From Tubulanus polymorphus (taxonomy: Eukaryota; Nemertea; Palaeonemertea; Tubulaniformes; Tubulanidae), in the NCBI RefSeq assembly GCF_964204645.1, contig NC_134027.1:9102485-9166484 (forward strand): a DNA stretch of 64,000 nt. The letters run 5' to 3'. The notes beneath the pieces are model-generated. The model was not told where the DNA came from. It was given only the letters and a program-made list of their open reading frames with translations, and searched no databases. Both the position numbers and the translations under genes were made by a program. This document shows positions 378 to 56,600 of this stretch, piece by piece (positions within the stretch are counted from its first letter, which is position 1; every line of letters begins with the position of its first letter).

Positions 378-1489
378 TTAAGACGAGATGGCGGGTCTCG
401 AACGAGCCACGTATTGTTGCGAAACTTGCAGCGTTACGATTAGAGCGAGCAACAATGGACTGAATACACACATATACCACGACGTTCCCGTCACATTTTT
501 AACGAACCAGTTCGAGAACATACCCGTCACCAGCGTCACGGATGCGAGAAAGAACATCAGCGTACCGGACGTGGCGTGGTAAAGTTTCATATCGCCTAAT
601 TTCAGGTTGATGAATTTCTGCACAAGTGAATGGTACAAAAGTCCCGTTCCAGCCATACACTGAAAGCATATGTAGCTGACAGTCATTAAACCTAATATGC
701 CGTGCCAGGTCACGAAGTGCAGTTTGTCATTCAGAATTTTGTTGTAGAATATCACACTGAATCCGGCGACAGCTGAACACGCAGCAATAAGCATTAATAT
801 CCAATGAACGCGTACTTTCAACGATCTCGCAGCCTTCTTCAACAGCGAACTGTCCTGTGAAAATGTAAGGATACCTTCAAATGCTAGAATGGTAAACTGA
901 AAAGAGAAACCAATTTTAGATCAATTTGTCATTCAATTAAAACCGTGTAGATGAGTAAGTGTGGAGGTAGATGTATGATAGATGGTTAGCATATATACTT
1001 ACTGCGATGACCATTAAAGTTGGATGCCAAGAGAAAAGACCTAGTAAAAAGAAAAAAAGTTCTTTTTCAAATTGCGCTGACAAGATCTGTAATAGTAAAA
1101 CGCAGTTACGGTCAATTACATTTTGTTTGGCGGTATAGAATTTTTAAGTAGGGCCAGGTTACAGAGACTGTTTGGGTTGACCACAACCTTACCCCTTAAC
1201 TAGCGCTTTTAACTCTAACCTTATACCGTAATCCCTAATTTCAGCGGTTCAAAAAGCCGCCATTTTGTATTTCAAGTACTACTTCCGTTTCGTAGAAACC
1301 CAGAATCCATATAAACCAGCAGAGCAGAAATGTTCCAGTGAAAATGAATCACTTACTGGACCCAGGCGTTGCGGTATATATTAGAAATCCAGCGAACAAT
1401 ACGGCTATGAAGTGAGCAGCCATAGCTTGAATTCTTTCGATGATAAATTCTATGTAAAAATGACGATTTGTGTTGTCGTCAGCTGTCAT
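378..1489 (-). CDS. CYB561D2: Cytochrome b561 domain-containing protein 2-like transmembrane reductase
   Basis: Three exons on the minus strand: 1489-1357, 1040-1003 and 896-378, giving 229 codons; human CYB561D2 is of similar length. The junctions close in phase and rebuild the family signature PGSSLFSWHPTLM across exons 1 and 2, then FEGILTFSQDSSLL, and later GLLYHSL and KLYHATSG. Cytochrome b561 proteins are six-helix membrane proteins with two haem b groups held by paired histidines; candidate ligands are visible in SWHP, VHWI, TWHG and LYHATSG. They pass electrons across endomembranes, typically from ascorbate to ferric iron or monodehydroascorbate. The start is the ATG at 1489, because it precedes a soluble N-terminus leading into the first helix (MAAHFIAVLFAGFLIY). 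It is divergent to PEDS1. The family assignment is firm; CYB561D1 versus D2 rests on my recollection of the D2 sequence. Confidence 0.92.
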
Positions 1490-1993: not shown

Positions 1994-2359
1994 TACCAAG
2001 AAAACGCCTCCAATGTCAACAGAAGTAAAAATTCAAGATGCGAAGTAAGCAATTTCCCGTCGAGATTTCCTCCCAGAAATAATATATATTTACTGGTAAA
2101 GCTAAACTAATTTCAAATATAATCTTGAATGAATTACACGAGTGTAATTATTTTGGTTTCTAAAAAATAAAATCAACTTTCTTTAAATCTCTCAAACCGT
2201 TTTTTTCAAAAAACGACCCGGCCCGGGGCATTTTGTTTGGGGCATGTTTATTGCCATTAATCAATTCGAATTCATCAAATTTATGAAGAAAATTAATGTC
2301 TGAATTTTGCAAAAAAAATAAAGATGATTGTTAAATTCATGAAGCGTTATCTTTCTCTA

Positions 2360-2987
2360 CAGATCCCGTGGGTCTTTCTCCATGGACCCTATGTTCCTGT
2401 CTCGACCCTTCAAACCTGTCTCTAGTCTCTACACAGTCCCGTGGACACTATGTTCCTGTCTCGACCCTTCAAACCTGTCTCTACTCTCTACACAGTCCCG
2501 TGGACACTATGTTCCCGTCTCGACCCTTCAAATCTGTCTCTACTCTCTACACAGTCCTGTGGACACCATGTTCCCGTCTCGACCCTTCAAAACTGTCTCT
2601 AGTCTCTACACAATCCCGTAGACACCATGTTCCCGTTTCGACCCTTCACACCTGTCTCTACTCTCTACACAGTCCCCTGGACACCATGTTCCCGTCTCGA
2701 CCCTTCTAACCTGTCTCTAGTCTCTACACAGTCCCGTAGACACCATGTTCCCGTCTCGACCCTTCTAACCTGTCTCTACTCTCTACACAGTCCCGTGGAC
2801 ACTATGTTCCCGTCTCGACCCTTCAAATCTGTCTCTACTCTCTACACAGTCCTGTGGACACCATGTTCCCGTCTCGACCCTTCTAACCTGTCTCTAGTCT
2901 CTACACAGTCCCGTGGAGCCTATGTTCCCGTCTCGACCCTTCACACCTGTCTCTACTCTCTACACAGTCCCCTGGACACCATGTTCC
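2360..2987 (+). repeat. 59-bp minisatellite array, left arm part 1
   Basis: Ten units at a spacing of exactly 59 bp (CTCGACCCTT at 2401, 2460, 2519, 2578, 2637, 2696, 2755, 2814, 2873 and 2932). The core is TTCCCGTCTCGACCCTTC, followed by CTGTCTCTACTCTCTACACA and GTCCCGTGGACACCATG. Units differ by a few substitutions. The array is cut by an insertion at 2988 and resumes at 3544. Confidence 0.95.
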
Positions 2988-3543
2988 TATTGGGGTGATA
3001 AATTAGTAGTTTGCATAGAGGGAGGGAAGCCAGAGTTCAGGGCAGTGGCTGAAGTTAGTAAACAACCTACGTAGATGCTTACGTCGCACACAAGACACTG
3101 AATAGAAGATAGGTGAAAGTGACGTGAGTATCTGCGTAGGGTTGCTGGTTATAGCGGCAGCCTTGAGCTCTGGTATGGCTAGGAAGTAAACAAGTAATAA
3201 ACTCGTGACGTATAACATATGTAGAAGTATACGTCACGAGTAACATGATATAAGATAAAAAGGGAGGGTCAGCACAGTAAGGGGGAGAGAGATGCTAGAG
3301 TGGCGGAGAAGCCTAAAAATACGAGCTGTAGGAAGGAATAAGAATTGTGCGGGAAAATAAAGAAAGAACGTAGACCCACGAGAAGAGTTGTTATTATTCC
3401 GGAGTCAGAGGGATATCACTTATCGGATTAATCGGAACCAACAACGACAACACGAGGGGAGAACGCAACGTGGCCCCCACAACAATTGGTTGAGAAACTC
3501 AACTCCACAACATTGTTGGAGAACCGAAAGCAACCCCACAACA
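2988..3543. mobile_element. LTR-like 556-bp insertion (probable solo LTR) in the minisatellite
   Basis: This block interrupts the 59-bp array between TTCC (2984-2987) and TTCC (3544-3547), a 4-bp direct repeat as left by integrases. The ends are imperfect inverses (TATTGGGGTG and CCCCACAACA). It has features expected of an LTR: a palindromic upstream part, a TATA-like GATATAAGATAAAAAGG near 3248-3264, a polyadenylation-type AATAAAG near 3355, and no ORF. A solo LTR is the simplest reading; a short non-autonomous DNA element is the alternative. Confidence 0.6.
3198..3242. promoter_or_regulatory. Palindrome with two CRE-like cores inside the LTR-like insertion
   Basis: AACTCGTGACGTATA is followed about 14 bp later by its inverse TATACGTCACGAGT. 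Each arm carries TGACGT/ACGTCA, the core of a cAMP-response/bZIP site. Position upstream of the TATA-like sequence suits an LTR enhancer. Binding is inferred. Confidence 0.45.
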
Positions 3544-3850
3544 TTCCCGTCTCGACCCTTCTAACCTGTCTCTAGTCTCTACACAGTCCCGTAGACACCA
3601 TGTTCCCGTCTCGACCCTTCTAACCTGTCTCTACTCTGTACACAGTCCCGTGGACACCATGTTCCCGTCTCGACCCTTCAAATCTGTCTCTACTCTCTAC
3701 ACAGTCCCGTGGACCCTATGTTCCCGTCTCGACCCTTCACACCTGTCTCTACTCTCTACACAGTCCCGTGGACCCTATGTTCCCGTCTCGACCCTTCACA
3801 CCTGTCTCTACTCTCTACACAGTCGTGTGGACACCATGTTCCCGTCTCGA
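3544..3850 (+). repeat. 59-bp minisatellite array, left arm part 2
   Basis: Five complete units and one partial unit in register with the first block (CTCGACCCTT at 3551, 3610, 3669, 3728, 3787; degenerate at 3846). Together with 2360-2987 this is one array split by the LTR-like insertion. Confidence 0.93.
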
Positions 3851-3859
3851 CATTTTTAG

Positions 3860-5575
3860 TGGACACAGGTTTAGTGAAGCCATTAAGATGGTGTTTCGTA
3901 TCTTGTATCAAGATATTTCGATATAAGTAATGATTTGTCATTCACGATTTGTCGGGCTACAACAGGCAGAAACAAGAAAATTAATTTTAGAAAATTATTT
4001 GACGCCTGAGAAAAAAGTGTAGAATTTCTGGGCTAAGCTAATGTGGAATTGCAAATTTGAAATCGAAGTTTTAAGAAATTTGGGGAATGATGAGATTTGG
4101 CGATTGGGTAGATGATACAGGTCTTCGACTCTAGTAGTGGTTTAAATTTTTTTATTGAAAATTCTCAATAATTGATCGCGAACTTGCGACCGACTTCATT
4201 TACTTATGCCTCTAAGCTGGTCTGCAACTTCATTGCCTCCATGGATGAAGAAAGAGCTCTTCTGATGTCTGCTTCATCATGACTTCGAGCATATCGTGTG
4301 GCCTAGCCAGCCGGCCCGGTCCCCGGGCCCGGGCCACGGGTTTGGCTGTCACTCGATATCCTAGAGTCTTGAGTCTGGGTGGGTTGAAGTAGACATTGTC
4401 ATTTAAAATAACATGCTTATGTTGTTCTGTATGAATTACCCGTGTGTCATGTATGTTGTATTAATTTATTTTAAAATTTGTATTTATTGAATTTGGGAAT
4501 TTTATCCCGGAATTTCAATGTAATAAGGATCAATAAAGAATTGAATTGAATTGTCACCTAATACACATGCCATCAGAGGACGCGGAGCCGTATATGACAG
4601 CTATGCTATTATAAATTGCTAATCTCACGAAACTTGCATACTCCTAATATCAAACATATTTTCACAAACGATTGAATATTGAAATTATATGTTTACACAT
4701 TTTCATATTGACCGCTTGTAGCCGCTGATGAAATTCACGCCGGCCCTACACACATCGTAGATAGCTTCGTCATTCCACCGGCATGCCCACGTCAGGGTCT
4801 GACTTTTATATCAGACTTCTGCATCGTGTATACATCCGCCATTTAACCGAATAATCCGATTTACTTATCATTTCTATTTATGCCTGCCGCTTCTGATATA
4901 ATCATACATCCTTTACTATTACAATACGTCTTCTAATGATATTTAATGCAATATAACATTTCGACGTTCAAATATAGGTCATTATATAATCACAGGAAGC
5001 CATTCTACATCTATGTCAATAATATTTTGCCAGACAGCTTGTTTGTGTACACATAAACCTGTGACGTTTTGCACATCGATTTACGGCTGTCGTTTGTAAA
5101 ATGACGCTGAATGGTTAGCATTGTTTAGGTTTCATAATGGTAACGTTTTATAAGGCGTCAAAAAAAAGAAAATTAAGATGAGAATGAAAGCCTTTCGTAT
5201 TGAAGACCATGGGATTCAGCCAAGGAACATTGATTATCGATTATCAAAAATCTAGAATTTCGACTATTAGGACAATGTCGGTTGTAATCTTCTGGTTCTT
5301 TGAGTTCGTTCTAATGAGTTTTCATTGTAATGTGTATGGTGCATATTCCTGAAAATTTCACTGAGTTTGATTGAAAATTGTAGAAATTTTCCTTATGTAT
5401 ACATGTATCAATATTCAGTCCGTCGGCATCGATTTTGTAGATTTCTCATCTTTTTAATCAATGAATATTCGACCAATTTTAATATTAATTTCCATCTTTT
5501 TTAAAGGCTCGTCCCACTGAGTGGAAATATTACAAGCCGATTAGATATGTCAGAGTATCCCAGAAACTGTCTAGA
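3860..5575. other. Central spacer of the fold-back element
   Basis: No credible coding sequence in six frames. Near 4295-4340 is a run of GGCCCGG/CCCGGGCC palindromes. At 4500-4553 the + strand has AATAAAG followed by GAATT-type tandem repeats, like the 3' tail of a degenerate non-LTR retrotransposon. The rest is AT-rich and featureless. Confidence 0.4.
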
Positions 5576-5579
5576 AACG

Positions 5580-6196
5580 GATGTGAAGGGTCGAGACGGG
5601 AACATGGTGTCTACGAGACTGTGTAGAGACTAGAGACAGTTTTGAAGGGTCGAGACGGGAACATGGTGTCTACGGGACTGTGTAGAGACTAGAGACAGTT
5701 TTGAAGGGTCGAGACGGGAACATGGTGTCCACGGGACTGTGTAGAGAGTAGAGACAGGTGTGAAGGGTCGAGACGGGAACATGGTGTCTACGGGACTGTG
5801 TAGAGAGTAGAGACAGATTTGAAGGGTCGAGACGGGAACATGGTGTCCACGGGACTGTGTAGAGACTAGAGACAGTTTTGAAGGGTCGAGACGGGAACAT
5901 GGTGTCCACGGGACTGTGTAGAGAGTAGAGACAGGTTTAAAGGGTCGAGACGGGAACATGGTGTCCAGGGGACTGTGTAGAGACTAGAGACAGGTTAGAA
6001 GGGTCGAGACGGGAACATGGTGTCCACGGGACTGTGTAGAGAGTAGAGACAGGTGTGAAGGGTCGAGGCGGGAACATAGGGTCCACAGGACTGTGTAGAG
6101 AGTGGAGACAGATGTGAAGGGTCGAGACGGGAACATAGGGTCCACGGGACTGTGTAGAGAGTAGAGCCAGATTTGAAGGGTCGAGACGGGAACATG
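5580..6196 (-). repeat. 59-bp minisatellite array, right arm (inverted)
   Basis: Eleven units, same 59-bp monomer as the left arm but reverse complemented (AAGGGTCGAG at 5586, 5645, 5704 and onward every 59 bp to 6176). It is continuous, with no LTR-like interruption. Confidence 0.95.
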
Positions 6197-23076: not shown

Positions 23077-26000
23077 CTATTTCTTTCGTTGTAAGAAGCC
23101 CATTACGGCTTTGAAACATTCCTCTGATTGCCATCGTTCTGTGAGTCTCACGCATTCAGCCTTGTTAACGCGGTGTAGAATATCTCGGTCGGCATCGCGA
23201 ATCAAAATCTTTGAATATTTCATACTCTGAAATGTACAATATCATAGTCTTTGTTGGTACCGAGTGCATTTAAACGAAGATCAATATCGTACCTGGTATG
23301 TCACGTCAATGACTACTTAGGGCGTAATCGCATAGACTTACCTGCTTCGGGAATCCTGCACGCTCTGCTAGTTTGGCTTCCACTTCTCTGTCGAATGAAT
23401 CATGAGGGAAGACTTCGGTCACTAATCCAAGATCACAAGCTTCCTTAGCTGTAATCATTTGGTTGAACAGCAAAAGTTCACTGGCCTAAAAAAACGATCA
23501 TCCATACAGTCAATTCTACTTATTCTGTTTCTGATGGACCGACGATTTCGGTAAGGTACATTTCTATAAATGCAGCATTTTTAAAGATGTTTATTTCTTC
23601 ATCAAATGAGTGTTGTTGATACGGAGTTTGTACTTTTTCCTGGGCCGATTTTTTATCGATATTTGAAATCTAATCTTTATTTGTCGAAGCAACACTTGCC
23701 TGGCTTTCGTAATATCAAGATATAATGATAATATGGAAGACGGCTTACAACACTACTAATACAGGATATGTTGTTTTTTAACTACTAACCTTGGCGATAC
23801 CCATGAGTTTTGGGAAAACATAAGACGAACATCCTTCTGGCGATTGTCCCAGTGCACTGAATGGCGTATGAAATGTAGCCTACAAATATAATGAAGACAT
23901 GAGTTACTCATTTCGATGTTTGTCCAGCTTTTGATAAATTCAACACAGTACAATGTGCATAGAAATAGTATTCATTTCCAACCAGCAGAGCCAATATGAC
24001 GCTTTTTAGGTTTCAATACAGTCGAAGTAAATATTTCTACAGTGGAACCCCTGTTTAACAACCTCGGATGCAACAATTTTTCAGATATAAAAAACCTAGA
24101 ATTTTGTCCCAGATATGGCAATATCAATTATTTTCACACTGGATATAACGAACTATCAGTTACAACAAACAAATTTTTTGGTTCCCTGAAGCTCATTGCG
24201 ACGAGGTTCCACTGTTAAGATGATGGGTAGACCTTATCAGTAGCGTATACTGCATCGAATAAGCCGAGCACGGTAACACTGATTCCAACTGCTGGACCGT
24301 TGATTTTTGCGATTAATGGTTTAGGGTGATCTATCATTGAAGCGACGAATCTCCTAAAAATAAGAGAAATAATAAGTTACCAGTAAGGAATATTCCATCT
24401 GACCCCTTTGTTTCATTCTGTTGCAAATTCAACGAGGCACCATGTGCGAATATATTCAAAAGGACACTTTTGTTAAGTGAAGTAAAGTTTGCAATTACAG
24501 TACACAATCATTTCTTTCACTGCATGGATGTTGATATCTTGGGAAAAACGAAAGCTGAATACACATACTCTAATATTTCTGCGCCCTCTTCTGCCTTAGC
24601 TTTTACATTATCTGGTGTGATATTGGCAAAGTTTTCTAAATCATTACCGCTACAATAGAAATCGCCTTTACCTAAAATGATTACAAAATATTTCGATATC
24701 TAACTCTCACTGGTGGTTAGAACAGTACACTGGGTTATCCCAATTCCTACGAGATGTGTCCTATGAGAATGCCAACAATCATTGTCAATATGAAGCCTAT
24801 AGGTTGAAACCTACTTTCCTCACATTCTTCAGACATGAACAAGATCGGATGAAACTAAGATGGCCGCTGACTGCATGAAAATCAACTGATCCAAAAAGCT
24901 GTTTAACTCAAATTTCAATGCAATTCAACAAACCATAAAGAAGCAAGAAGACGCTTACCAATTCAGTACTGAATGACTTTTTTTGGAACAAAAAATGGTC
25001 ACCTGTTATAACTGTAATGGCTGTTTTAGTGTCATTAGCTGCATCCTGTAATGCCTGAGTCCATTGATCATACATCTGTGTAAATAAACTAGACTAGTAA
25101 AGCGAATTGCGTAAAGAATTCACCCAGTAACCTTTCGGGTTATTCCTCAGAAAGTCCTTTGCATACAAGCACTAAATACATGAATAGGTAACTCTTACTT
25201 GAGTGGTTATTGCATTCTTTTTTGCTGGCCGGTTTAGAGTAATACGAAATTGATTGTTTTCAGCTGTGACTTCGATGTCTTGATACTTTGAAGAATCTCC
25301 GCTTTTAGTGGTTGTAGCAGCAGCTGGTTCTTCAGATCCGGCCAAATCATTCACGAGTTTGATATAAGCTGCCATTGCATCGTCCTGGAATAAGAATTAA
25401 TTAATGGAAATCAAGGGACATAACTGACTTAAGTAGAATATCTTACCTTGGACATGTCACCCAAGTTATTCCAGGCTTCCCATTTTACTTTTCCCACAAA
25501 ATCCATCATGCCTGGCTTCTTCTTCGTATTTTTGCCTTCGGTGGCCTGTACAAAAAGACTGCATGTAATATTACACCATTACAATAATCTCTAAGGCAAG
25601 GCTCGATTCATACAGTTCTAGAGAGTATCTTCTCAGGATACAAGCTCCTCCAGTGTCGGTATCCCATGTAAAACTTTAGTATCCCTATTTGCCTTTAAAT
25701 TTCTTTTCACGAAAATACAGTAAAGAATTGAATCAATATGATCCTCTTTATGGTGAAATCAGAAAATTTTTGTATCCTTCAGGATAATTTCATTTCAATA
25801 TTTAGTATCTCAACAAAAAATCTCAGGATACTGTCAAGATTGAGCCCGGTTAGGGTGCCAGTAGGTTAGAAATTGTGAGTGTGGTAATTTGGCCAACCTG
25901 TTTGAAAAGTGAATAGATCTGCAGTTTAACGTCATTTCCGGGATCTTCTTGAAGCGTGTTCAGGCGATCTTTGGCAGCTTGGAAATCTTCATTAATACCA

Positions 26001-26786
26001 CGAAGCACATAACTTGAGCAGAAACTACGTCTAGCCAACCCTGCCAACTGTGGAACAGCACGCCTACTTATCCTAAAATGAATACCAAAAAACACAAGTG
26101 GTTAAGAAACGACCTTAAAAAATTCTGCTTCAGTTTTTAGTTAGGTCTACTCAACGCAAATCTACTACATTTTGCATGTAATGTTTGCATACTCGCAACA
26201 TATCATAATGCCATGATGGACTAGGGATCGTTGGGCCAAATGCCCCAAAAGCTTTTAAGGTTAGAAACATACCAGGTATGTACTACCAATAGCTAGGACA
26301 CCTGACGTCCTTTAAAGTTTAAATAGACTTGTACTGGTGTACTGTTGCTAATACACCAACACTCAACAGGGAAAGGCCGGGTGAATACAGTGAAATTAAG
26401 TGATGGACTGTGCTGACGATCTTAACACTGTAAGGTTAGAGTAGCTTAGATCGTCCAATACTGCATGATTTTAGTTACAGTATGAAATGTAACTTAAATC
26501 ATCCAGTATGACGTTCCTCACCAACCTCTGGGCTCTGTGGTTGCTTGTAAAACATATAGCTGTCAATAAAATTGCATTGAATTTGACTACTCGGTTATAT
26601 TTCTACCGATCAGGGTCTGGATATGATGGAGATATCAAGTCAATTTCTGACTTCAAACAAATAAACCTATCGAGGGCTGTGTCCCGCATCGACTGACAAC
26701 AAATAAAACGAGCGTTATTACCCGTTCAGATGCGATACATGTCGCAGGATTACACCTCCCGAAAGTAAACCGGCGGAAGCTGCCAT
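23077..26786 (-). CDS. ECI2: Enoyl-CoA delta isomerase 2 (ACBP + crotonase), mitochondrial
   Basis: Ten exons: 26786-26755, 26072-25898, 25545-25447, 25384-25199, 25075-25003, 24671-24569, 24353-24233, 23879-23790, 23485-23342 and 23226-23077; 390 aa, close to human ECI2. It shifts cis-3/trans-3 double bonds to trans-2 in enoyl-CoAs during oxidation of unsaturated fatty acids. Residues 1-35 ([16 protein letters not shown]...) are a basic, Ser-rich mitochondrial leader. Residues ~36-120 form an acyl-CoA-binding domain ([44 protein letters not shown]). Residues ~137-390 are the crotonase fold with oxyanion-hole segments [10 protein letters not shown] and [10 protein letters not shown] and the catalytic Glu278 in [10 protein letters not shown]. 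The C-terminus is LQRKK, so a peroxisomal SKL-type signal is absent. It is divergent to CDYL with a 262-bp gap. Confidence 0.95.
24038..24217. mobile_element. pogo/Tigger-type MITE in an ECI2 intron
   Basis: CAGTGGAACCCCTGTTTAAC and GCGACGAGGTTCCACTG are inverted ends of a 180-bp AT-rich element, 16 bp from the exon boundary at 24233. A partial relative lies at 15479. Confidence 0.7.
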
Positions 26787-27048
26787 CTTGACAGCTGGTA
26801 GAGTATACACAGGGAAGCGAGTGTGAGATTGAATTTCGATTCAAAAATCTTACACCGTTTGCGAGTGTAGAAATAACAAATGATAGCAGCAGAATTTACA
26901 TATGATTTTATTTAAACGCAAAGATAAGATAATTAATTGATGTAAAACAATTTTAGGAAAATAATGGCTCAAAAAGCGGAATCCTTTTACGGAATGCGCC
27001 CCGGACTATATAATCCCGTGACGTCATTTTCGTGAAAATCTCTATACA
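26787..27048. promoter_or_regulatory. Shared divergent promoter region of ECI2 and CDYL
   Basis: Only 262 bp separate the two start codons. A perfect palindromic CRE/ATF site TGACGTCA is at 27019-27026, 23 bp before the CDYL ATG, and TATATAAT at 27007-27014 precedes it. The CRE may lie in the CDYL 5' UTR. Transcription start sites are not known. Confidence 0.6.
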
Positions 27049-30000
27049 ATGGAGGATGATCCGAGTAGGGCTGCTGCTGAAACTATTTACGAGGTACGCG
27101 TAGCACACGCGCATTTTCGCTTCGTCGTTGACTGCTGGTGTTTTTATTCTATTCCATATCAAATTGCCCAGCTTTTATCATTGGTGTTGGTATAGCTATA
27201 TACGTCTAATTCTACTAAATAATCGCTCGCCGTGTGCATTTTGATTTGGCTCTTTTTGAGATAAAACTTTTTTATCAGTCATTAATAATAAATCATGAGA
27301 TTGATTAGATTAGATCCGCTCTGTTGATTTTTTTTAGCTGTCTCCATCAAATAATGTTTTCGCAGAAAATGACATTCATTTCACATCCATCCACTCATAG
27401 CGACTTGTCAATTTATTTACTTTTATTTTAGTGAATTCCTACTCACTATATTATTATCCTCTGTATTTGAAAGGGCCTGTTGCCGTTGGCCTTCTTCATT
27501 GAATATATTTTTGTACCTCATTATTTTCAGCATTTAACTAATGAACAGAGTTTTTCTTTTTAATTTATTCACGCTTTATCATTTGCCAACTGCATGTGCT
27601 TTCTGCTGTTTACATTATTTTTCCATCTTTGTGCATTAGCCTAACTACCTTTTCGCTTGAAGCATTACACAGCCGATGTTCGCTGTTCTTAACATTTTCC
27701 AGGCTGTTTCCTATCAAACCACACGAATGAATTATTCAAGAATATGATGGACGAACATTAGAAATACGTAGAAGAGCTCATTTAAACTTTGTTTCTGGTA
27801 AATAGCACAATTTTCTTACAAAGTTTTCCGAGTTGTCGCCTCTGTTCAGTATTTTCTCCGTTTCTAAGCTAAGCATTTTGCGAAAGGTTTTATTGAGTTC
27901 GTCTCTTATTACTAATAAAAGAAAAAAAAGGAACTTATCGTTGAAAATTACATGCCACGCCCAGACTACACCTATAACTCAGTGTACACAATAACCTTAA
28001 ACCTAGATAGAAATGATAAGCATTTCCACAACCACATGATTTAGCATTATCCTTTATCACGCACTGCATGCATGTTCATTATTAATCTGATTCCTACCGT
28101 ACTTACAAAGCTGATGTCACATATGTCCATTTGTGCAATAATTAGAGGAATAGTTCATTAATGAGAGACCCAACCTTGGTGTCATGAAAAAGTTAATTAG
28201 ATGCCTCCATTATTTGATATTAACAGTACCCCCCGTATAATATACCATACCACTGACTAAATTGGTAGGGCCTATATGAGTTGTCTTGTCAGTGACTAAG
28301 CTGTGGTAAAGTTTCATGATTGGACAATGTCACAAACACTGCATGATTATACAATATTATAAAAAGCTTAAGGATAGGGTCATTAAGATAAGGAGTTGTG
28401 TTTCATGTTGTACACTACACTTTCATTCAATGAGATGCCATTTAATTTTCTATCAAAAACTGTAGTATAAATCTTCGGTAATGCCACTGTTTGGACCAAT
28501 GAAAATGATTTAATCTATTCTTAATTTTCTTGTGAAAAACTGGATTGATTTTCCAACAAGTAAATGAATGTGACTTGTACAACATTTATATAGACCTAGT
28601 TCAGCAGATAATAGGCTTAGATCTTGTTTTTTGGGTCTCAAAAATTATGTCATATCTGCAAGATATAATTGAAAATGTGACACCATGAATATCTGGGCAG
28701 GTCATATTGGTGTCAGATCCTATCTGCCTTTCGGAATTATTCTAGTAGACCTGTGAACATATGTGAATGGGCTAACATTAATAAATTTCACCTTTGCATT
28801 ATCATCATATCATTTATCATTGAAATGGGCTGCGTGGTTTCTTAACATTTCATTGGCTAACTTTTTAGGCATTTGTTTGGTATGGCAGTGCATGTCTGAA
28901 CATAAAATATATATATATATATTTCATCTATGTGTTTTTAATGTAATCACTTTCTTTAGATTGACGACGTGCTCCAAAAGCGTATTGGCAAACTTGGTAA
29001 ATTGGAATATTTGATTAAGTGGAAAGGCTATGAGAAAAAGTTTAACTCTTGGGAGCCGGGAGCTTCCTTGTTGAACTGTGGAAACGTGCTGAAAAAGTTC
29101 AAAATGGCGAAAGCCTTGTCGATTACGAAAACTGCCGGCCAAACAAAGGCTAAACAGTTAAAAGTAAAAGCACTGAAAGCTGGCATGGTTACGAAAAGCT
29201 CCATTCCTAAAAAACGCAAAATCATACCGACAACAAAAGCTAAAGGCACAAACATTATTAATTCGATTGCGAAACGAGTGCCGATGAATAAACTAGCAGG
29301 ACTTTTACCGGAGAAAACGAAGAAAGCAATAGCAAAAGTTAAAAAAGACACTGTGAAAAATAATGTTGTAGTCAATACAAATCTAGAGTCTCATGTTAAA
29401 GAAGAGGTTACGACAGATGTAGAACAAGTCACCTCGGCTAGTGTTGATGATCTACAGTCTTTAAATAATAGTAATAATAATTTGGATAGTGTAGATGGTA
29501 GCTTCATCTCCATTGAGGAAACCTCTTCAGAGGCTGAAGATGTAGGTGATCACAAAAAAATCAGTGATAATAACGCGAGTAGTATTAGTGGCAATAAACC
29601 TAGTGCTAAATCATTTGCACAGAAGCGGGCTTTGAAAGACAATCGAGCACGCTATAAGTTGAATCCGGCTGCTCTGCGCGAGTTAACGAGACTTGTTGCC
29701 GATGAAAAGGGTAATGCAGATGCCCTGAAACAGATAAACAAACTGGCGAGTAGCACGAAATCGGGATGCGTCAGTTTGAAAGCGTTAACCGAGCTCGTAA
29801 CGAAAGAGGCGGAACTGAAAGAGCGCACTCGCAAACGGAAGCGTGAGGCAAATGCCGCTGCAGCTCTAGCCGCGAAAAAGTCGAAGCCAGCAATGGCCAC
29901 AGCTCGCAAGAAGAAACCTGCAGCCACTGTCGGGTCGTCGGCAAAAAAGCAGCTCACTGGTCAGGCACAGAAACAAAAGTCATCGCCACCTAAGAGTACT

Positions 30001-32386
30001 GCTCGGAAGAAGGATGTTGCTCAGGATGCAAAATCGAAAAAGAAGAAGTCCCCAAGCAGTGCAGCATTTCAGCAGTCCAATCATGATAGAACGACTGCGC
30101 TAAAACTAGGCATGCCAAAAACAGAGGTTGTCAAACCAGGTAATGTTGTTTAAAACTTCACAGTACTTTTGAAGTTGTAGATGCAGAAATTGTATAGAAT
30201 ATGTCTGAGAATGACTACTTAGCCTTGAAATTAAGAGTAAGTAGATAGTAAAAAGAATTGTAACTTCAAAAGTTTTAAACTTACTGGGTTTGCAGGCACA
30301 GCCAGCTTATTTGGTGATTACAATACCAAACTGACCTGCCTGGTGACATGGGTCACTGGTATTTGTAGTGAGTGCTTTATTATAGAAAATGTTCTGGATT
30401 TTTGTGATTTTGTAGTACCTCGTACGACACACGCGAAAACTGGTCCTTCAATGATGCATATCCCGACTCCTACTGAGTTCAGCGCGTTTAAGACACCAGC
30501 TACGACCCCGGCTACAATTGTCCATCAACCCCAGATACTCGTCCTCGACAACGACGCCACTGCTGCCTACTATTCCGATCTGCCGACATGCACACTTCCT
30601 GTTGCGCCAATATTCCCGAGCAGTCCGACGACGGAATCATATCGTTCGCTCGTAATGAACTTGCCGGCGAAATTGCAAGCGAATCGTTTGGTGCGGCGAC
30701 GCAACAGCAAAGAGGAGGATGAAGAGATCATCCAGCGTCGATTGAGCGTTCGGCAGAGTGAAAGTGCATTTAAATACAAGGAAATCGTTGTGAAAAAGTT
30801 TGACAGCTACACCCAAATTTGGCTGTTTACGAACACAAAGCTCGGCAATTCGTTGAATCCTCAGGTAACCAAATTAAAGTCCATGTCCCTCTGTCGTTGT
30901 TGATCAAGATTTGAATGTCGATCATGCGTTTTGCCAATTGCCCACATATGAAAACTTATTCTTTTTCATTTTAATTCGTCAAGGAAAACTTGATACGCAT
31001 CTTCAGAAATATTGTCCTTTTGGTTAATGTCTTAGTTCTTGTGCTGCATGTTATGAGTTGCTTTCTTCTAAAGGAGAATAGAAGTCGTCAATTGTGTACC
31101 ATTTCAAGCTGTTCGTTCCAGGTTTTCCAAGAACTTATCTCGGCATTTAACAATGCTAAGTACGATGAAAGCTCGCTGGTGATGTTAAGCGGTACTGGTA
31201 GTCTGTTCTGCTCCGGAATCGATTTGGCGTATCTCATTAATTCGGAAAATCGCAAAAAAGCCGCTGAAAAAATGGCAGCAACTCTTCGGTAACTATATTT
31301 ACCACAGTCCACCGAATTGAAATATGGCTCAAAGTATTGAGAATATTATGGACATAGGAGTGGATATGTACCGTCTACTTAAGGTTGCAACACAAACAAG
31401 ATCTTGAGGATCGTAGTCTAGATATTGTTGAAAATTTTTGCTGTTTCGATCTTTTAGGGATTTTATACAAACACTGATAGCGTTTCCTAAGCCGGTTGTC
31501 GCCGCGGTGAATGGGCCGGCTATTGGTCTCGGTGCTACTATCTTGCCATTATGCGATGTCGTGTATGCCAGTGACAAGGCATCGTTCTATTTGCCGTACG
31601 CTCGAATTGCTCAAACTCCTGAAGGCTGTTCGTCATTCACTTTACCATCAACAATTGGAATGGCTATGGTCAGTTTTGTCGGGTTCATGAAAATATGCAC
31701 TTTTGCCTATTACCAAATGGCTTTTAAAATCTCGTTTGACTTGACTCTATCTGTTATTTCCATTTGTAAGGCTAATGAAATGTTGTTTGGGGGTCGAAAA
31801 CTGACGGCGATGGAAGCGTATCAAAGCAGTTTGGTATCACAGGTGTTTTGGCCAACAACCATGATGCAAGAAGTTGTGCCAAGGGTTCAACAGATGGCAA
31901 GTCAGTCTGCGCGAGTAAGTATTACTTAACCCCAATATCGTGCTCGAGTTAGAGCTGCCAACAGTTCCTGATTTTTGGTATTTGTTACTCTTTTAAGAAA
32001 TACGGATTTGATTTGTTTGATGCATACAGAAACTGAGTTACAGTTACTGAGGGTCTTACTTTTGATTACTGATTAATTTGAACATTTTCTTTCATATTTC
32101 AATAAAGTGTACTGAAAAAAAATTCAATTTGTTACTGATGGCACTTCAGAGGTTGGCAGCACTAGATATACTGCATAGCATTGAATGTCGGGTGCAAATT
32201 TTCACTCTTGCTTTGGTTTTTTTTTAGGCATTGGAAGCGACCAAACTGATGATACGTAGCCATATCAAGGCCAAACTGGATTATACGAATGATTCTGAGT
32301 GCAATATGTTGAAAGATTGTTGGTTGACGTCCGAATTCTACACTGCAGCAAAAATCTACGTCGAAGAGGAGCAACATTTTCTTTGA
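27049..32386 (+). CDS. CDYL: Chromodomain Y-like protein
   Basis: Seven exons: 27049-27093, 28960-30139, 30416-30864, 31122-31288, 31458-31668, 31771-31914 and 32228-32386; 784 aa. CDYL proteins read methylated histone H3 tails and act as nuclear co-repressors; the C-terminal crotonase-like domain has been linked to crotonyl-CoA hydration and CoA binding. Residues ~13-62 are a chromodomain (IYEIDDVLQKR, LEYLIKWKGYEKKFNSWEP) with the aromatic cage candidates Tyr14, the Trp of IKWKGY and the Phe of KKFNSW. Residues ~65-520 are Lys/Ser-rich and disordered with several nuclear signals (PKKRK). Residues ~527-784 are the crotonase fold (SLFCSGIDLAYL, NGPAIGLGAT, AQTPEGCSSFTLP). Introns 3, 4, 6 and 7-side boundaries match ECI2. 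The second exon is unusually large (1180 nt). Confidence 0.94.
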
Positions 32387-49400: not shown

Positions 49401-52400
49401 CTAGTCTGGATGTCGAGAGTGGCGGCTCACCATCCTGATATTGCCAGTTTGGTAGATATCGGATATTCGTTCGAAGGAAGAAAACTTCAACTACTCAAGG
49501 TATCTGTCAACTAAATCTACTTCAACAAGTACAAATATCTCTGCCGTAATGACAGTGTATTTTGCAGCTGATTTCGCGCCGAGTCGTTACCGCGGAATCG
49601 ATCTAAAAACATTAGTTTTAACCACGTATTACCACACAGGAGCAAGACTTGGTCGATAGTGAAAGATTCTACTATAGCCAAGGATTTTGAAATTATAACT
49701 TTGAAAATGAATTACTGTTGCTAAAATCGTCGATTTATACATATGACCCAATTTGACTTCGGCTGGCAGATCATGTCTATGCACATCCTCACTTGCCAGG
49801 GCTTGATTGCCTCCCGCGAAGCCAACACAAACACTGGCCGCAAGCCCTTTATTGGTCTATTGCATTACCCCAAGATTTCTTGGGCGGAGAGGTTGTCGCA
49901 AAGCGGCCACCAGTCTATATATTAAGCCAATCAGATGCGTTGTTTTCCACCAGACGATTCGCTTACACATCTGATTGGCTAGATAAATAGTTTGGTGGCC
50001 GCTTATTGGAAACATGTCCGCCCAAGAAATCTTGGGCAGGGTGAGCTTCAGCGGGAGGCAATCAAACCCTGGCAAGCAATGATGGTCTAATCCCGAGCAC
50101 CTGATTTGGTGTTTTTGTTCGAATCGTTACTCATCACTCCACAACATCCCACTTAAACATCGTATTCCTATGTCACCTCTGTCGTATAGATTGGCAGTCG
50201 TTTGCACGAAGATAAACCAGCGATATGGGTCGATGGTGGTACACATGGCCGAGAATGGATTGCGCCGGCCACCGCTTTGTTCATAATTGACCAGGTAATC
50301 AATTGAGCTTTACGTTATGTCTTTGTTTCCCCACTCCATTTCCAATATCGAAATGGACTGCAAAAAAACCTTCTGAATAATCCTCCAGCTTCATTCATTT
50401 ACGTAATACAATTAAACTTGATATTGATGGGCTAGTGGGCGGGATAGCGACCTAGATCCCAGAGACGCATGACTCAGGACTTTACAATCATGATAGATGT
50501 GAACATTTAACCAATCGTTCTTAACACATATATTTCCTTATGCCCACAGTTAGTTTCCAACTACGACAAGAAAAGAGACATCAAAGAACTGGTGGACATT
50601 TATGATTGGTACATTATGCCGGTCTTAAATCCAGACGGTTACGAGTTTTCCCACTCATCGGTAAGGTCCTGAAATTCCAGCTACACAGTTTATAGTTTCC
50701 TATACTAGACAACAAGAACAACAATCGGTATTTGAATATTTCAAATGATCTAACATTGATTGTTCTCAGAATCGTCTGTGGCGAAAAACGAGGAGTTTCA
50801 CTTCAGGAAGTAATTGCAGAGGAGTCGACGCGAACAGAAATTTTGGATACAAATGGAAAGGTGAGAGTAAAGTGTTATACTGTATCGATGATTCTTGCGT
50901 TTCATTGAAATTAGCTTGCAAGTTATCAACTTACAACGGACCTCTGACTGAGTATCTTACTGTTCCTGTTCGTTCTAATGCATAGAATGCGAACGGCGTA
51001 GTTACGGAGGGCGACAGTGCTACAGCGACAACCCTTGCGAATCGATTTATGCCGGTCCTCGACCGTTTTCCGAAAAGGAAACCCGCGCCAAAAGGGACTT
51101 CCTGCTGTCAATAAAAAGAAACGTGAAGATCGTATTCAGCTTGCATTGTTACTCGCAGTTGTGGCTTACACCATGGGCGTACACGAAGACGCAACCAGAA
51201 AATTATAAAAGACTTGTAAGTCATTTTACGATTATAAAGATCTTTAAAACACAAAATATTGTTTGATGGGCTATGACAAGCTTATATTTGGATCACAATT
51301 TCTTCGTATTTACAGCTAACTGTTGCAAGGGCTGGTATCAGAGCTATTAGATTGAAGCATAACAGAGTCTACAACGTTGGTTCACCTGCCAGACTTTTAT
51401 GTAAGTTTTTACACAGAAAATCCCAATTCAGGCTCCACGATACATGGTATAAACGCTTTTGGTTAGAGGTTTAAGATATCGCCCGTCTTACTTTAAACTG
51501 CTTCCAGAATATTAAACTTGATGTAATCAAGTAACTTATTAGAATAAGACTTAGAAAATTGATACATTGTTTCTCATTTCTGGCGAGTTGACCCGGCCGG
51601 CCGCCTATCTACCCTGCACACCTTTTGAAAAATCATGATCAATACCATAACTATGGTGGCTGATAAGGGCCATAGCGTAAAATTCCTGGTATGTAAATGA
51701 GGGCGCCAGAACGCCAGAACGCCAAAACGAAAAAAAACGTCAAATTTTCTCTGAAAGTCCGTTTTTGCGCACCAAAACAAAGAATATTCCGTTTTGGCGC
51801 CCCGCCAAAACAAACATCCATTTTGGCGCCCCGCCAAAACAACGAAAAACGTCGAAATTCCTCAGATGCGGCATATATAGAAATGAACTGTCATAAAGAA
51901 TGTTATTGCAGTTTACAAAAATGACCCGGCTGATAAAGAGATTAGAAACGAGGTATCATTTTTTCTTAGCATAGAGAAATTTTGACAAGATGATTCTTTC
52001 ACAGATGCAGCGGGCGGAAGTGCCCTCGATTGGACGTGGGGTACGTTGAAGGCCGAATATGTTTACACACTTGAATTACCCGACCAAGGTCAACTTGGAT
52101 TTCTTCTTCCGGTCGAAGCCATATATCCCGTAGCCGACGAAACCTTTGAGGGAATAAAAGCTGTCGCTCACTTAACGTCGCCTGAGTTCAAAACGACCGC
52201 CACCCTGAAACCAAATAACGGCCCGCTACACGGATCCAACAGTGGCAGAATCACTGGTCCAAACGACTCGATCGGTGATTTGTCCAACTCGAAAGGCAAA
52301 GGCATTAATGCTGATTCAACGAATGATCCTAATGGTTATCGCGTTGTAGATTCTTCTTTAAACGAAATAAACTCTGAAAATGTGAACGTAAATGCTTTAC

Positions 52401-52822
52401 CCAACGAAAGTCCGCTTGTGGAGGGCTTGGAGGAAATATTTTCACCGAATCAAATGTCTTCGAATGAAGTAACCGAAGATGTTGCTGAGAACAATGCTGT
52501 GGCCACACGGCCACCAGTTGCTGCTGGACAGATAATCGAAGCTATTGAACATGATTTAAACAGCATTAAAGACACGAATAGTAGATCGAATAACGCTTCA
52601 AGCAGGGCTAGGTTCGACGCGTTGGAATCTAACATGGCTATCGTGTCGGACATGGCCGCCGCTCATAGACCGCCTCCTTACGAAGCCAGTGTCGAATCTC
52701 GGAATAGCTCAGTTCCTACAGACGCGCAAGAAACCGCTACAAAATTCAACGAATCGGCCGTGTCTGACACGGAAACGATTTCGACAACGGAAATCGAAGA
52801 CTTTGAAGTCATTCACCACTGA
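37450..52822 (+). CDS. M14A carboxypeptidase zymogen with long C-terminal tail
   Basis: Eleven exons: 37450-37538, 45905-45986, 46260-46405, 48971-49115, 49398-49499, 50190-50294, 50550-50660, 50770-50860, 50986-51215, 51316-51400 and 52005-52822; 667 aa. A secreted zinc exopeptidase. Residues 1-20 are a signal peptide; ~30-105 an activation propeptide (GYKVFRVFTKSP); RTKR125 is a furin-type release site. The catalytic domain (~126-457) has the HxxE zinc motif (GGTHGREW), DANRNF (substrate-binding Asn-Arg), the third zinc ligand in SLHCYSQ, a Tyr248 equivalent (LLYAAGG) and the general-base Glu in YTLELPD. The residue equivalent to 255 appears to be Leu, favouring hydrophobic C-termini (A-type). 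Residues ~458-667 are an Asn/Ser/Glu-rich disordered tail that ordinary A/B enzymes lack. Exon 3 has a CAGCAG tandem acceptor. The first intron is ~8.4 kb. Confidence 0.93.
38465..38633. mobile_element. Inverted-repeat element with CGTTTCG motif, in carboxypeptidase intron 1
   Basis: GTAAAACCCTCTATACAGAATTT is mirrored by AAATTCTGTATATAGCGGG and TTTTAC. The centre carries GACGTTTCGAACTCTC and GATCATCGTC. ATAATTTGAA flanks both sides. Relative of 7097 and 35319. Confidence 0.6.
44299..44445. mobile_element. CAGGGCCGTACC-type MITE, copy 1
   Basis: Ends CAGGGCCGTACCTAGCA and TACGGCCTTG; internal GGATATAACAATAATATTTG. Same family as 54851-54978. CAGGG/CCCTG termini resemble hAT-type elements. 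A G10 run lies inside. In carboxypeptidase intron 1. Confidence 0.65.
48640..48840 (+). repeat. Degenerate tandem repeat, AATTATTTTC monomers
   Basis: GAAATTATTT/GAATTATTTTC recurs every 20-35 bp and the block TTATTTTCACTTACGAATA is duplicated exactly at 48778-48820. In carboxypeptidase intron 3. Confidence 0.6.
49792..50076. mobile_element. Long-hairpin MITE in carboxypeptidase intron 5
   Basis: CTTGCCAGGGCTTGATTGCC plus TCCCGC, then CCCCAAGATTTCTTGGGCGG, GCGGCCACCA and AGCCAATCAGATG are mirrored in order by CATCTGATTGGCT, TGGTGGCCGC, CCGCCCAAGAAATCTTGGG and GGGAGGCAATCAAACCCTGG. About 285 bp, ending 114 bp before exon 6. Confidence 0.85.
51690..51850. repeat. GC-rich hairpin repeats in carboxypeptidase intron 10
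   Basis: TTTTGGCGCCCCGCCAAAAC occurs twice (about 51792 and 51821), a perfect 8-bp stem with a short loop, after three AACGCCA units near 51710-51730. Function unknown. Confidence 0.6.
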
Positions 52823-53682: not shown

Positions 53683-56600
53683 ATGGCTTATCAAGAAGCA
53701 ACGCAACCTACAACAACGATGGTCGGAACTGAACCGGACACAGGAGTCCGTCCTAACCCAGATAACGATGATGCAAAGGAAGTAGATGATGACTCAAAAT
53801 GCCTGGTGATTAACTCATGAAACTTTTGTGGCATTATTGAAATAAGTATTTACTATCTAGTAGTGGTAAACGAGCATAACGACATTTAATAGATTAGATA
53901 CGGTAGTTTATTTTGTTCAGCAAAAAGATATTTGCTTAGAGCAAAGAAAAACCTAAAATCTGTAATAATCAAATGTGGATAATAATCAAATATATACATA
54001 GAAATATATGGACATATCTATAGATTAAACTATAAATCTAATTTACTAAAATTAATTAGATTTAAATATGAGTCGACATTGCATATGCATTGTTATTTCA
54101 CCCAAAAACTAGCTATTTTCTTGTTAATAACAATTTTGAATGAATTTTCATAATAAAAAAAAAAATACAATAGAAAATGGAAGCTATATTCCATATGTCC
54201 TTCAGCAAACAAAATCCTTTGATATAATTTGTCTAATATAGGAGTCCCTTATCGAAGCATGCAAGTCAGGAAGATTGTCAGAAATAGAGTACTGTTTGGG
54301 TACCGTCAAGAAAGAGCGTATCAACGAAACTCTCGCTTCATCGGTAAGATTGTTACGAAATACTGATGTATAATTCTAAGACGTGTTAACAATAACATCT
54401 TCATGTATTGAAATTTGATGCAAAAAGACATATAAAAAGTTCGCGATTATATCATTCATTTAAGTTGGGATACGCAGCCATCCATTGTGTCGCAGCATAC
54501 CGAGGCCGAACTTGTGAAAACGCGATAGCAGCTCTGATTGGCGCCGGAGCCGACCCTAATTTACAATCCGCTGAATTACGGGAGACGCCGTTACATCTCG
54601 TTCTAAAAAACACCCGATGCAAATATCCCGAATCGACTATTCTAACTTTACTCGAACTCGGTGCCGATCCATGGATAAAGAATAAGGTACGGGGCACACT
54701 TGATTCACACTTATCACTAAATGTCTTCATAGATCCATACATAATCAATGTATGAATTTGGCATGAATTTTTACAAATATTATCAGAATACTGAGATAAA
54801 TATTATACAGTTGCGGTAATGGAGGACTCCCAAACGCTATCACACGCTTTCAGGGTCGTACCTAGCATTTCGAGGGTCCTGAAAAAGTACAGTCCCATTG
54901 GATATAACAATCATATTTGCAAAAAGGGCACTTTTCGAGAATTTCTGCCGGGCAAAGGCCCCGCTAGATACGGCCCTGGCTTTGAGAGCCCTAATGTATA
55001 CGCGTAATGGCAATGATGTAGATAGCGATGAAAGCCATCGATTGACAGCGTCTAAATGATAAGAATATTCGTTCATATGCGTTTTTCTTTTCAAACGAGA
55101 AGGCGTTGAGAACATCTTACGACGAGGCAACTACACGTGGAGTCGCATCACTTATCGACATATTAGGCTCGACGCACGAACTTCTACGTGACGAGGATGT
55201 AATGTCAATACAGGTATCATTCCTCGTGCCTTAGATTTACTGGAAATTAAGAATATTACATTACTCGTTACTCGCGTAGGATTAGGCGTTTCTCGTGGGT
55301 CAATAACGAGCAATTTTCCCGATTAAAACTGGTTTTAACGGTTGTCGTACAAGTTCGAACACCGGTGACAGCTGCGATCAGTAAAAAACAGGTGCCTTCA
55401 TTACACTCGAATTATTATTACTCGAACAGGTTCAAACAACAGTGACAAATTTTCGAACGACATTTATTTTCGTAAAAACTAAATGAACGCATTTAGGTAA
55501 GACTAGACATACATTGCCGAGAATATATCATCATCGAAGATATGTATTACGAAAGGTAATCATTCCAACAATTAATTCGCTATCTGCCTCGAAACGAAAA
55601 AAAAAAACAACAAACGTCGATCAATCATTCATTGCCTTCATTAACTTACAATCAATTGAGACTACGGTATTTGTTCAAAAGACATACACCATATCTCTTC
55701 ACTTAGACGTTGTTCGTTCGTCGCAATGGTTATATATGGTGGCATGGATTTTCAGATGTTTTGCTGTCTAAGTTGGCATCGTCGTCACAACTGAAAGAGA
55801 GAGGACTATAAGACTGCTTTGGGAGGGGTTTTAGGTTTATTCATTATGTCTAACGGCTTCGGTGTCGTTTTGATTTCAGGATGTGATCAGTAAATATCGT
55901 AAAGCATATCCGAGGATGTTCGATCGAGAAGTAGTAAGTTTGCTTGGGTTTCCGACTGTAATCATTCACCGTTTCTAGCGATTTGAAAAGTTCCCATTCA
56001 GCAGTCTTCTTTTTTTCTGAATTTAGAATCAACTGCATTTGCTCTGCATCGATGGTACTAAAAATGAAATTCAAAGATGCATTTTACAAGACAGGGCCAT
56101 GTTGTTCAGACATAACGAGGTCAGCTATTTCAATATTCAACAACACTGTTTCCGTAAACACGGCAATTCAACTATTTTGCAACGAATCAAAGATAAATTC
56201 AAAGTTGAAATATTTTTAGAATGGACTTCTGCCCATACACGTGGCTGTTCAACGCGAACTGGACGATACATCAGAGATACTGGACCTACTAGTCGAACAT
56301 AAAGCCGACGTTAACGGTAAAACAGTGGTCGATGGAGACACACCGTTACATATCGTTGTCCGGTTAGTCGGTTTACAGAAAGCTATTGAGCTCTCGAAAA
56401 AACTGATGTCGCTTGGGGCCAACACGAAATCTCGAAACCGGGTAGGCCTAAATATTATGTTATTACTAGCCTTTAAAAATCCATTCAGTTGTCATGGACA
56501 CTTGATTATAATTGTATTCCCATTCGATCGTAAAAGTCCTGCGGTACATGCATTTATCTTTGTTTAACTTAAGCCACAACTTATGCTGTATGGTCTTCAT

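Follow-up and report, generated by a model that had tools for sequence, protein, structure and literature searches.

A 64,000-nucleotide stretch of the nemertean Tubulanus polymorphus genome (hereafter the window; positions 9,102,485-9,166,484 of contig NC_134027.1, a 27,807,848-bp contig in a 268-Mb genome) contains two complete crotonase-domain genes, ECI2 and CDYL, placed head to head. ECI2 lies on the minus strand from 26786 to 23077 and has 10 exons encoding 401 amino acids; CDYL lies on the plus strand from 27049 to 32386 and has 7 exons encoding 784 amino acids. All introns of both genes have GT-AG borders. The exact exon models bear out the distance of 262 bp between the start codons (26787-27048) given in the initial annotation of this DNA, and place the pair among divergent genes less than 1 kb apart. 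The exons are as follows; all rest on the exon models, with additional sources in brackets.

26722..26786, minus strand: ECI2 exon 1; start codon 26786-26784, likely mitochondrial presequence (judged by eye)
25898..26072, minus strand: ECI2 exon 2; ACBP domain begins (Pfam)
25447..25545, minus strand: ECI2 exon 3; ACBP
25199..25384, minus strand: ECI2 exon 4; end of ACBP and start of crotonase, up to TTQ|
25003..25075, minus strand: ECI2 exon 5
24569..24671, minus strand: ECI2 exon 6
24233..24353, minus strand: ECI2 exon 7
23790..23879, minus strand: ECI2 exon 8; active-site Glu289 in SPEGCSS (alignment)
23342..23485, minus strand: ECI2 exon 9; 144 nt, borders match CDYL exon 6 (alignment)
23077..23226, minus strand: ECI2 exon 10; stop, C-terminus QRKK
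27049..27093, plus strand: CDYL exon 1; chromodomain start, ends YE| (Pfam)
28960..30139, plus strand: CDYL exon 2; remaining chromodomain and basic linker (Pfam)
30416..30864, plus strand: CDYL exon 3; linker and start of crotonase, up to NPQ|
31122..31288, plus strand: CDYL exon 4
31458..31668, plus strand: CDYL exon 5; active-site Glu669 in TPEGCSS (alignment)
31771..31914, plus strand: CDYL exon 6; 144 nt, borders match ECI2 exon 9 (alignment)
32228..32386, plus strand: CDYL exon 7; stop

The ECI2 model is identical, letter for letter, to NCBI protein P0121. Pfam searches detected an ACBP domain at residues 50-124 (98.1 bits, E 3.2e-28) and an ECH_1 domain (124.5 bits), the ACBP plus crotonase architecture reported for human ECI2 (PECI, ACBD2). 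CDYL has a Chromo domain at residues 14-63 (49.8 bits against a cut-off of 25.1, E 3.1e-13), a basic linker and a C-terminal ECH_1 domain, as in the CDYL/CDYL2/CDY family, which is also characterized by binding to methylated H3K9/H3K27 and recruitment of co-repressors. The NCBI entry for CDYL isoform X2 (P0001) corresponds to residues 64-784 of our model and hence lacks the chromodomain; a chromodomain-less human CDYL variant is mentioned in the paper on fly HIPP1 (PMC6385973). The chromodomain of HIPP1 itself was reported to be degenerate, unlike that of worm CDYL, which is above the Pfam cut-off (PMC6385973).

The C-terminus of worm ECI2, QRKK, has no peroxisomal targeting signal type 1 (PTS1), a difference from ECI2 (PECI, ACBD2). 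A PTS1-like end was likewise absent from many crustacean and molluscan sequences, and from 51 of the 120 listed ECI2 entries in all, Tubulanus included. Judging by these C-termini, peroxisomal targeting of ECI2 seems to differ between lineages.

The crotonase domain of CDYL has four introns, and when the two proteins were aligned by MAFFT together with 10 helper proteins, each of the four fell on an ECI2 intron in both column and phase, as the initial annotation had proposed. The matching sites (ECI2 versus CDYL) are TTQ|M versus NPQ|V (phase 0), IL(E)R versus TL(R)D (phase 2), IAK|A versus MAM|A (phase 0), and PKQ|S versus SAR|A (phase 0). In both genes the exon bounded by the last two sites measures 144 nt (23342-23485 and 31771-31914), and two further introns of the ECI2 domain, VIT|GKG (phase 1) and TDK|ATF (phase 0), have no counterpart in CDYL; the same annotation had noted both points correctly. 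The chance that random placement over 774 aligned nt would put four of four introns on ECI2's six is 1e-9, and 200,000 random-placement draws gave at most two shared introns. Because the shared introns survive, copying presumably took place at the DNA level and not via mRNA. Three splice junctions common to fly Hipp1 and Cdyl, and one common to a PECI-like fly gene and Cdyl, have been reported (PMC6385973).

Phylogenetic analysis placed the CDYL crotonase domain as sister to ECI2, with no grouping with the other crotonases tested. In the 64-row tree the support values were 99/99 for ECI2 plus CDYL apart from other crotonases, 96/91 for CDYL and 100/97 for ECI2. The corresponding values in a first tree of 65 rows, from which the 64-row tree differs by removal of a badly cropped Antedon row (branch 7.98), were 95/92, 86/85 and 100/98. 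The unnamed entries P0058 and P0061, together with P0053, were included and fell among the invertebrates. Bit scores and predicted-structure Z scores also placed the CDYL crotonase next to ECI2, and the Tubulanus CDYL crotonase matched the human CDYL structure (PDB 2gtr) with 256 bits (6.3e-75).

Linkage in other animals was assessed from protein listings, by asking whether CDYL and ECI2 of one species lie on contigs of equal size. Each listing held the best 120 rows, the two for CDYL being the best 120 of 786 and the best 120 of 529 matches. Among the matches listed, 20 of 23 invertebrate species had the two genes on equal-sized contigs (19 of 22 without Tubulanus), including the brachiopod Lingula, the chiton Liolophura, bivalves, two abalones, Gigantopelta, the limpet Patella, Littorina and the sea urchin Diadema. 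In vertebrates, CDYL and ECI2 were on equal-sized contigs in all three species concerned (two sharks and a caecilian), and CDYL2 and ECI2 in none of six, which provides a useful control. Pooling all species other than Tubulanus gave equal-sized contigs in 22 of 25, the strand orientation being known in the window alone. Both conditions that the initial annotation had named as refuting, a tree with CDYL closer to another crotonase family and genes unlinked in most outgroups, thus turned out in its favor for the crotonases and species compared. The deep linkage that had been proposed is supported by contigs shared in molluscs, a brachiopod, an echinoderm and vertebrates. CDYL from non-bilaterians, ecdysozoans or amphioxus did not appear among the best 120 of 786 and best 120 of 529 matches. 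Human ECI2 and CDYL presumably lie on the minus and plus strands, respectively, which is the same divergent order. The initial annotation had called the two near neighbors on human 6p25, and the published OMIM gene table for this band agrees, its column running PRPF4B, ECI2, CDYL, RPP40 (PMC7479479).

The motif SPEGCSS of ECI2 contains Glu289, which we take to be the catalytic base of ECI2-type isomerases, although a literature search for the catalytic residue found no passage that names it; in Tubulanus, both ECI2 (a PEGCSS-type site) and CDYL (Glu669) have Glu in this column. All 120 listed ECI2 entries have Glu there. The 185 listed CDYL-family entries are divided: 67 have Glu, comprising every named invertebrate entry (51 of 51) and 16 unnamed ones; 67 have Asp and are of the vertebrate CDYL type where named (P0083 is named CDYL2); 50 have Ala and are of the vertebrate CDYL2 type where named; and one (P0120) has Thr. 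Worm CDYL, with its ECI-type Glu, thus differs from human CDYL, which has Asp483, and from the CDYL2 entries, which have Ala (Thr in one). Asp483 has been described as an oxyanion-hole residue with Glu812 as its counterpart in fly HIPP1, a published CDYL homologue that retains Glu like worm CDYL (PMC6385973). The distance from the Glu to a neighboring Leu is 31 residues in the worm, the same spacing as in that description. The distribution suggests that the isomerase site was still intact in the first CDYL and was altered in the vertebrate line.

The interval between the genes has the following extent.

26787..27048, no strand: interval between the two start codons, 262 bp, GC 0.35 (sequence)

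It contains a TATA-like TATATAA at 27007, a common match with 99 occurrences in the window, and a perfect cAMP response element (CRE) palindrome, TGACGTCA, at 27019, which has 3 copies in the whole window. The TATA-like box and the palindrome together (27007-27026) precede the start codon of CDYL by 23-42 bp. A promoter common to ECI2 and CDYL within the 262-bp interval is plausible.

We consider it highly probable that ECI2 and CDYL are sister genes, duplicated together with their introns from one enoyl-CoA-isomerase gene on this chromosome before the protostome-deuterostome split. What was observed directly is how the two proteins are built from domains, the four introns they have in common, their placement as sisters, the contigs that the genes share in several phyla, and the Glu of the active site. 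The locus has likely moved little since a metabolic enzyme became a chromatin protein there in an early animal. One copy would have come to carry an N-terminal ACBP domain and a mitochondrial presequence and to serve double-bond shifting in fatty-acid oxidation, as ECI2, a predicted Delta3,Delta2-enoyl-CoA isomerase; the other would have gained a chromodomain holding the sister crotonase at methylated histones, as CDYL. Invertebrate CDYL with the ECI-type Glu would then be a predicted chromatin-tethered acyl-CoA enzyme altering local enoyl-CoA and crotonyl-CoA pools. Vertebrates have two copies: among the entries listed, CDYL has Asp and shares a contig with ECI2 in the three species compared, and CDYL2 has Ala and shares none with ECI2 in the six compared. 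The duplication is possibly older than bilaterians, a 2009 study having dated it before the divergence of 'Animals' (PMC3091328).

A more far-reaching version of this history seems to us distinctly unlikely. It would make the pair the preserved birthplace of a chromatin regulator, with an inverted duplication kept at its own breakpoint since before the protostome-deuterostome split by a shared promoter coupling fatty-acid oxidation to chromatin, with all non-vertebrate CDYLs being working chromatin-tethered enoyl-CoA isomerases, and with vertebrates, following a duplication of their own, breaking the chemistry (Asp in CDYL, Ala in CDYL2) and freeing CDYL2 from the locus.

Several points weigh against the main reading. 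For both trees the program warned of long outgroup branches beside the ECI2 plus CDYL split and of unsettled bootstraps. Contigs of the two genes differ in size in Babylonia, Lymnaea and Aplysia; those of the last two are scaffolds of 0.7-1.7 Mb, and the genes could therefore still be linked. In Pinctada the locus tags (FSP39_005260 and _023346) are distant although contig size is equal. The divergent orientation is known from the Tubulanus window alone, and genes of an ancestral linkage group can stay on the same chromosome simply by default. Human neighbor genes (PRPF4B, RPP40 and others) were not represented among the 10 open reading frames (ORFs) scanned, of 227 of at least 60 amino acids outside the locus. 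As to chemistry, the catalytic activity of the worm CDYL crotonase is a prediction from sequence. Human CDYL has been reported to be a crotonyl-CoA hydratase that lowers histone crotonylation, with a CoA pocket that also binds histone deacetylases (PMC8055951); it has Asp, and the Glu is therefore not required for every activity.

The direction of the change is less clear than the kinship. The initial annotation had CDYL arising when chromodomain exons captured a duplicated ECI2-like gene. The paralogy and the inheritance of introns stand, but derivation of CDYL from ECI2 does not follow, because the two clades are reciprocally monophyletic in the 64-row tree and a common origin from a bare ECI-type gene fits equally. 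Under that alternative the ancestor had no ACBP domain; one copy acquired ACBP to become ECI2, the other a chromodomain to become CDYL, and neither derives from the other. Consistent with this, a search of 68 CDYL proteins found no clear ACBP remnant (best E 0.026, versus 5e-33 or lower in 5 ECI2 controls), and ACBP-fused ECI2 has been reported as metazoan-only, fungal and plant homologues lacking ACBP (PMC7057175). On the other hand, a lost ACBP domain may leave no trace after so long, and the ECI2 exon ending in TTQ| spans the end of ACBP and the start of the crotonase domain, so that the fusion may be old. We give the bare-ancestor origin a little less than an even chance. A crude chromodomain regular expression matched only 33 of 67 invertebrate or unnamed entries; it was set aside as over-strict, the N-terminus also being absent from some of the entries.

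It is also conceivable, but in our judgment rather unlikely, that the linkage reflects macrosynteny alone, the genes having stayed on one ancestral chromosome by default and the 262-bp head-to-head arrangement being a local accident of a compact genome. Most of the shared contigs are indeed long and chromosome-sized, and the pig genes are 0.4 Mb apart (PMC11639466). However, four shared contigs are short (0.34, 0.62, 2.4 and 4.3 Mb), and in Sinanodonta the ECI2 and CDYL locus tags are consecutive. The published gene lists, as far as they go, also place ECI2 next to CDYL among the genes listed in both human (PMC7479479) and pig, where no listed gene falls in between (PMC11639466).

The intron matches could in principle be old crotonase introns that many families have kept at random, or could have been gained independently at favored sites. 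Some sites do cluster: the phase-1 VIT|GKG intron of ECI2 (one that CDYL lacks) falls in the same column as a phase-0 intron of ECI1, and the partial model of ECI1 stops at a donor ~2 columns short of the KQ|S site. But when ECI2 and CDYL were compared with seven other crotonase genes of the genome, none of the remaining 35 gene pairs shared an intron in column and phase, which makes this explanation very improbable. The seven (ECI1, ECI1-like, ECHS1, AUH-like, ECHDC3, HADHA and ECH1, named by resemblance) represent all loci of the 13 other matches from a six-frame genome search in which ECI2 itself went undetected; the models of ECI1 and HADHA end short of the last shared site, which was compared in five of the seven. 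Derivation of the CDYL crotonase from another crotonase family, with likeness to ECI2 arising by convergence, merits practically no credence, as the tree and the introns, like the bit scores and structure Z, point to ECI2 and nothing was found in its favor.

Two of the comparison genes had features of their own. The ECH1-like crotonase domain (L015, G000:C7:15907000-15914000) lies in one uninterrupted open exon, which sets it apart from the remaining crotonases modeled, and may be a retrocopy or a case of intron loss. An intron of the ECI1-like gene (L009, ~4000-4560) contains a tandem repeat whose translation has SYRVQLCP-like units.

Elsewhere in the window, the ORF scan identified pieces of four other genes.

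381-920, minus strand: cytochrome b561 piece
51986-52819, plus strand: zinc carboxypeptidase M14 piece
54396-54752, plus strand: ankyrin repeats piece
62256-62570, minus strand: CUB domain piece

None of these is known to be a neighbor of human ECI2 or CDYL. Two long ORFs on the minus strand at 57816-59823 resemble, by eye, a reverse transcriptase of the long interspersed nuclear element type; the part at 57816-58472 had no Pfam match. A minisatellite-like array occupies 2335-3927 and 5633-5983, its translation repeating a motif like VSTLYTVPWTPCSRLDPS in several frames.

Ancient conserved microsyntenic pairs, neighboring genes that have stayed linked across phyla, are known in animals. Unlike these, ECI2 and CDYL are paralogues with different N-terminal domains, and the locus may therefore still be their birth site. 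A 2009 study of the human mitochondrial proteome already listed PECI and CDYL as paralogues and dated their duplication to before animals diverged (PMC3091328), and fly HIPP1 was published as a CDYL homologue in 2018 (PMC6385973). The 2009 study reports the same paralogy, and the text examined from it deals with neither linkage, introns nor catalytic residues (PMC3091328). In a full-text literature search, no report turned up of ECI2 and CDYL being linked, of the four introns they have in common or of the Glu/Asp/Ala series. As the genes and their kinship were already known, the history of the locus is the new contribution.

For few chromatin proteins does the genome still show how they were born. 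In this ribbon worm an enzyme and a chromatin protein are adjacent with matching introns, and their genes are also found on common contigs in clams, a brachiopod, a sea urchin and sharks. Whether CDYL started out as a working acyl-CoA enzyme brought to chromatin can be tested directly with this locus. This bears on whether the effect of human CDYL on histone crotonylation is catalytic, and the Glu/Asp/Ala series identifies the residue on which a comparison should focus.

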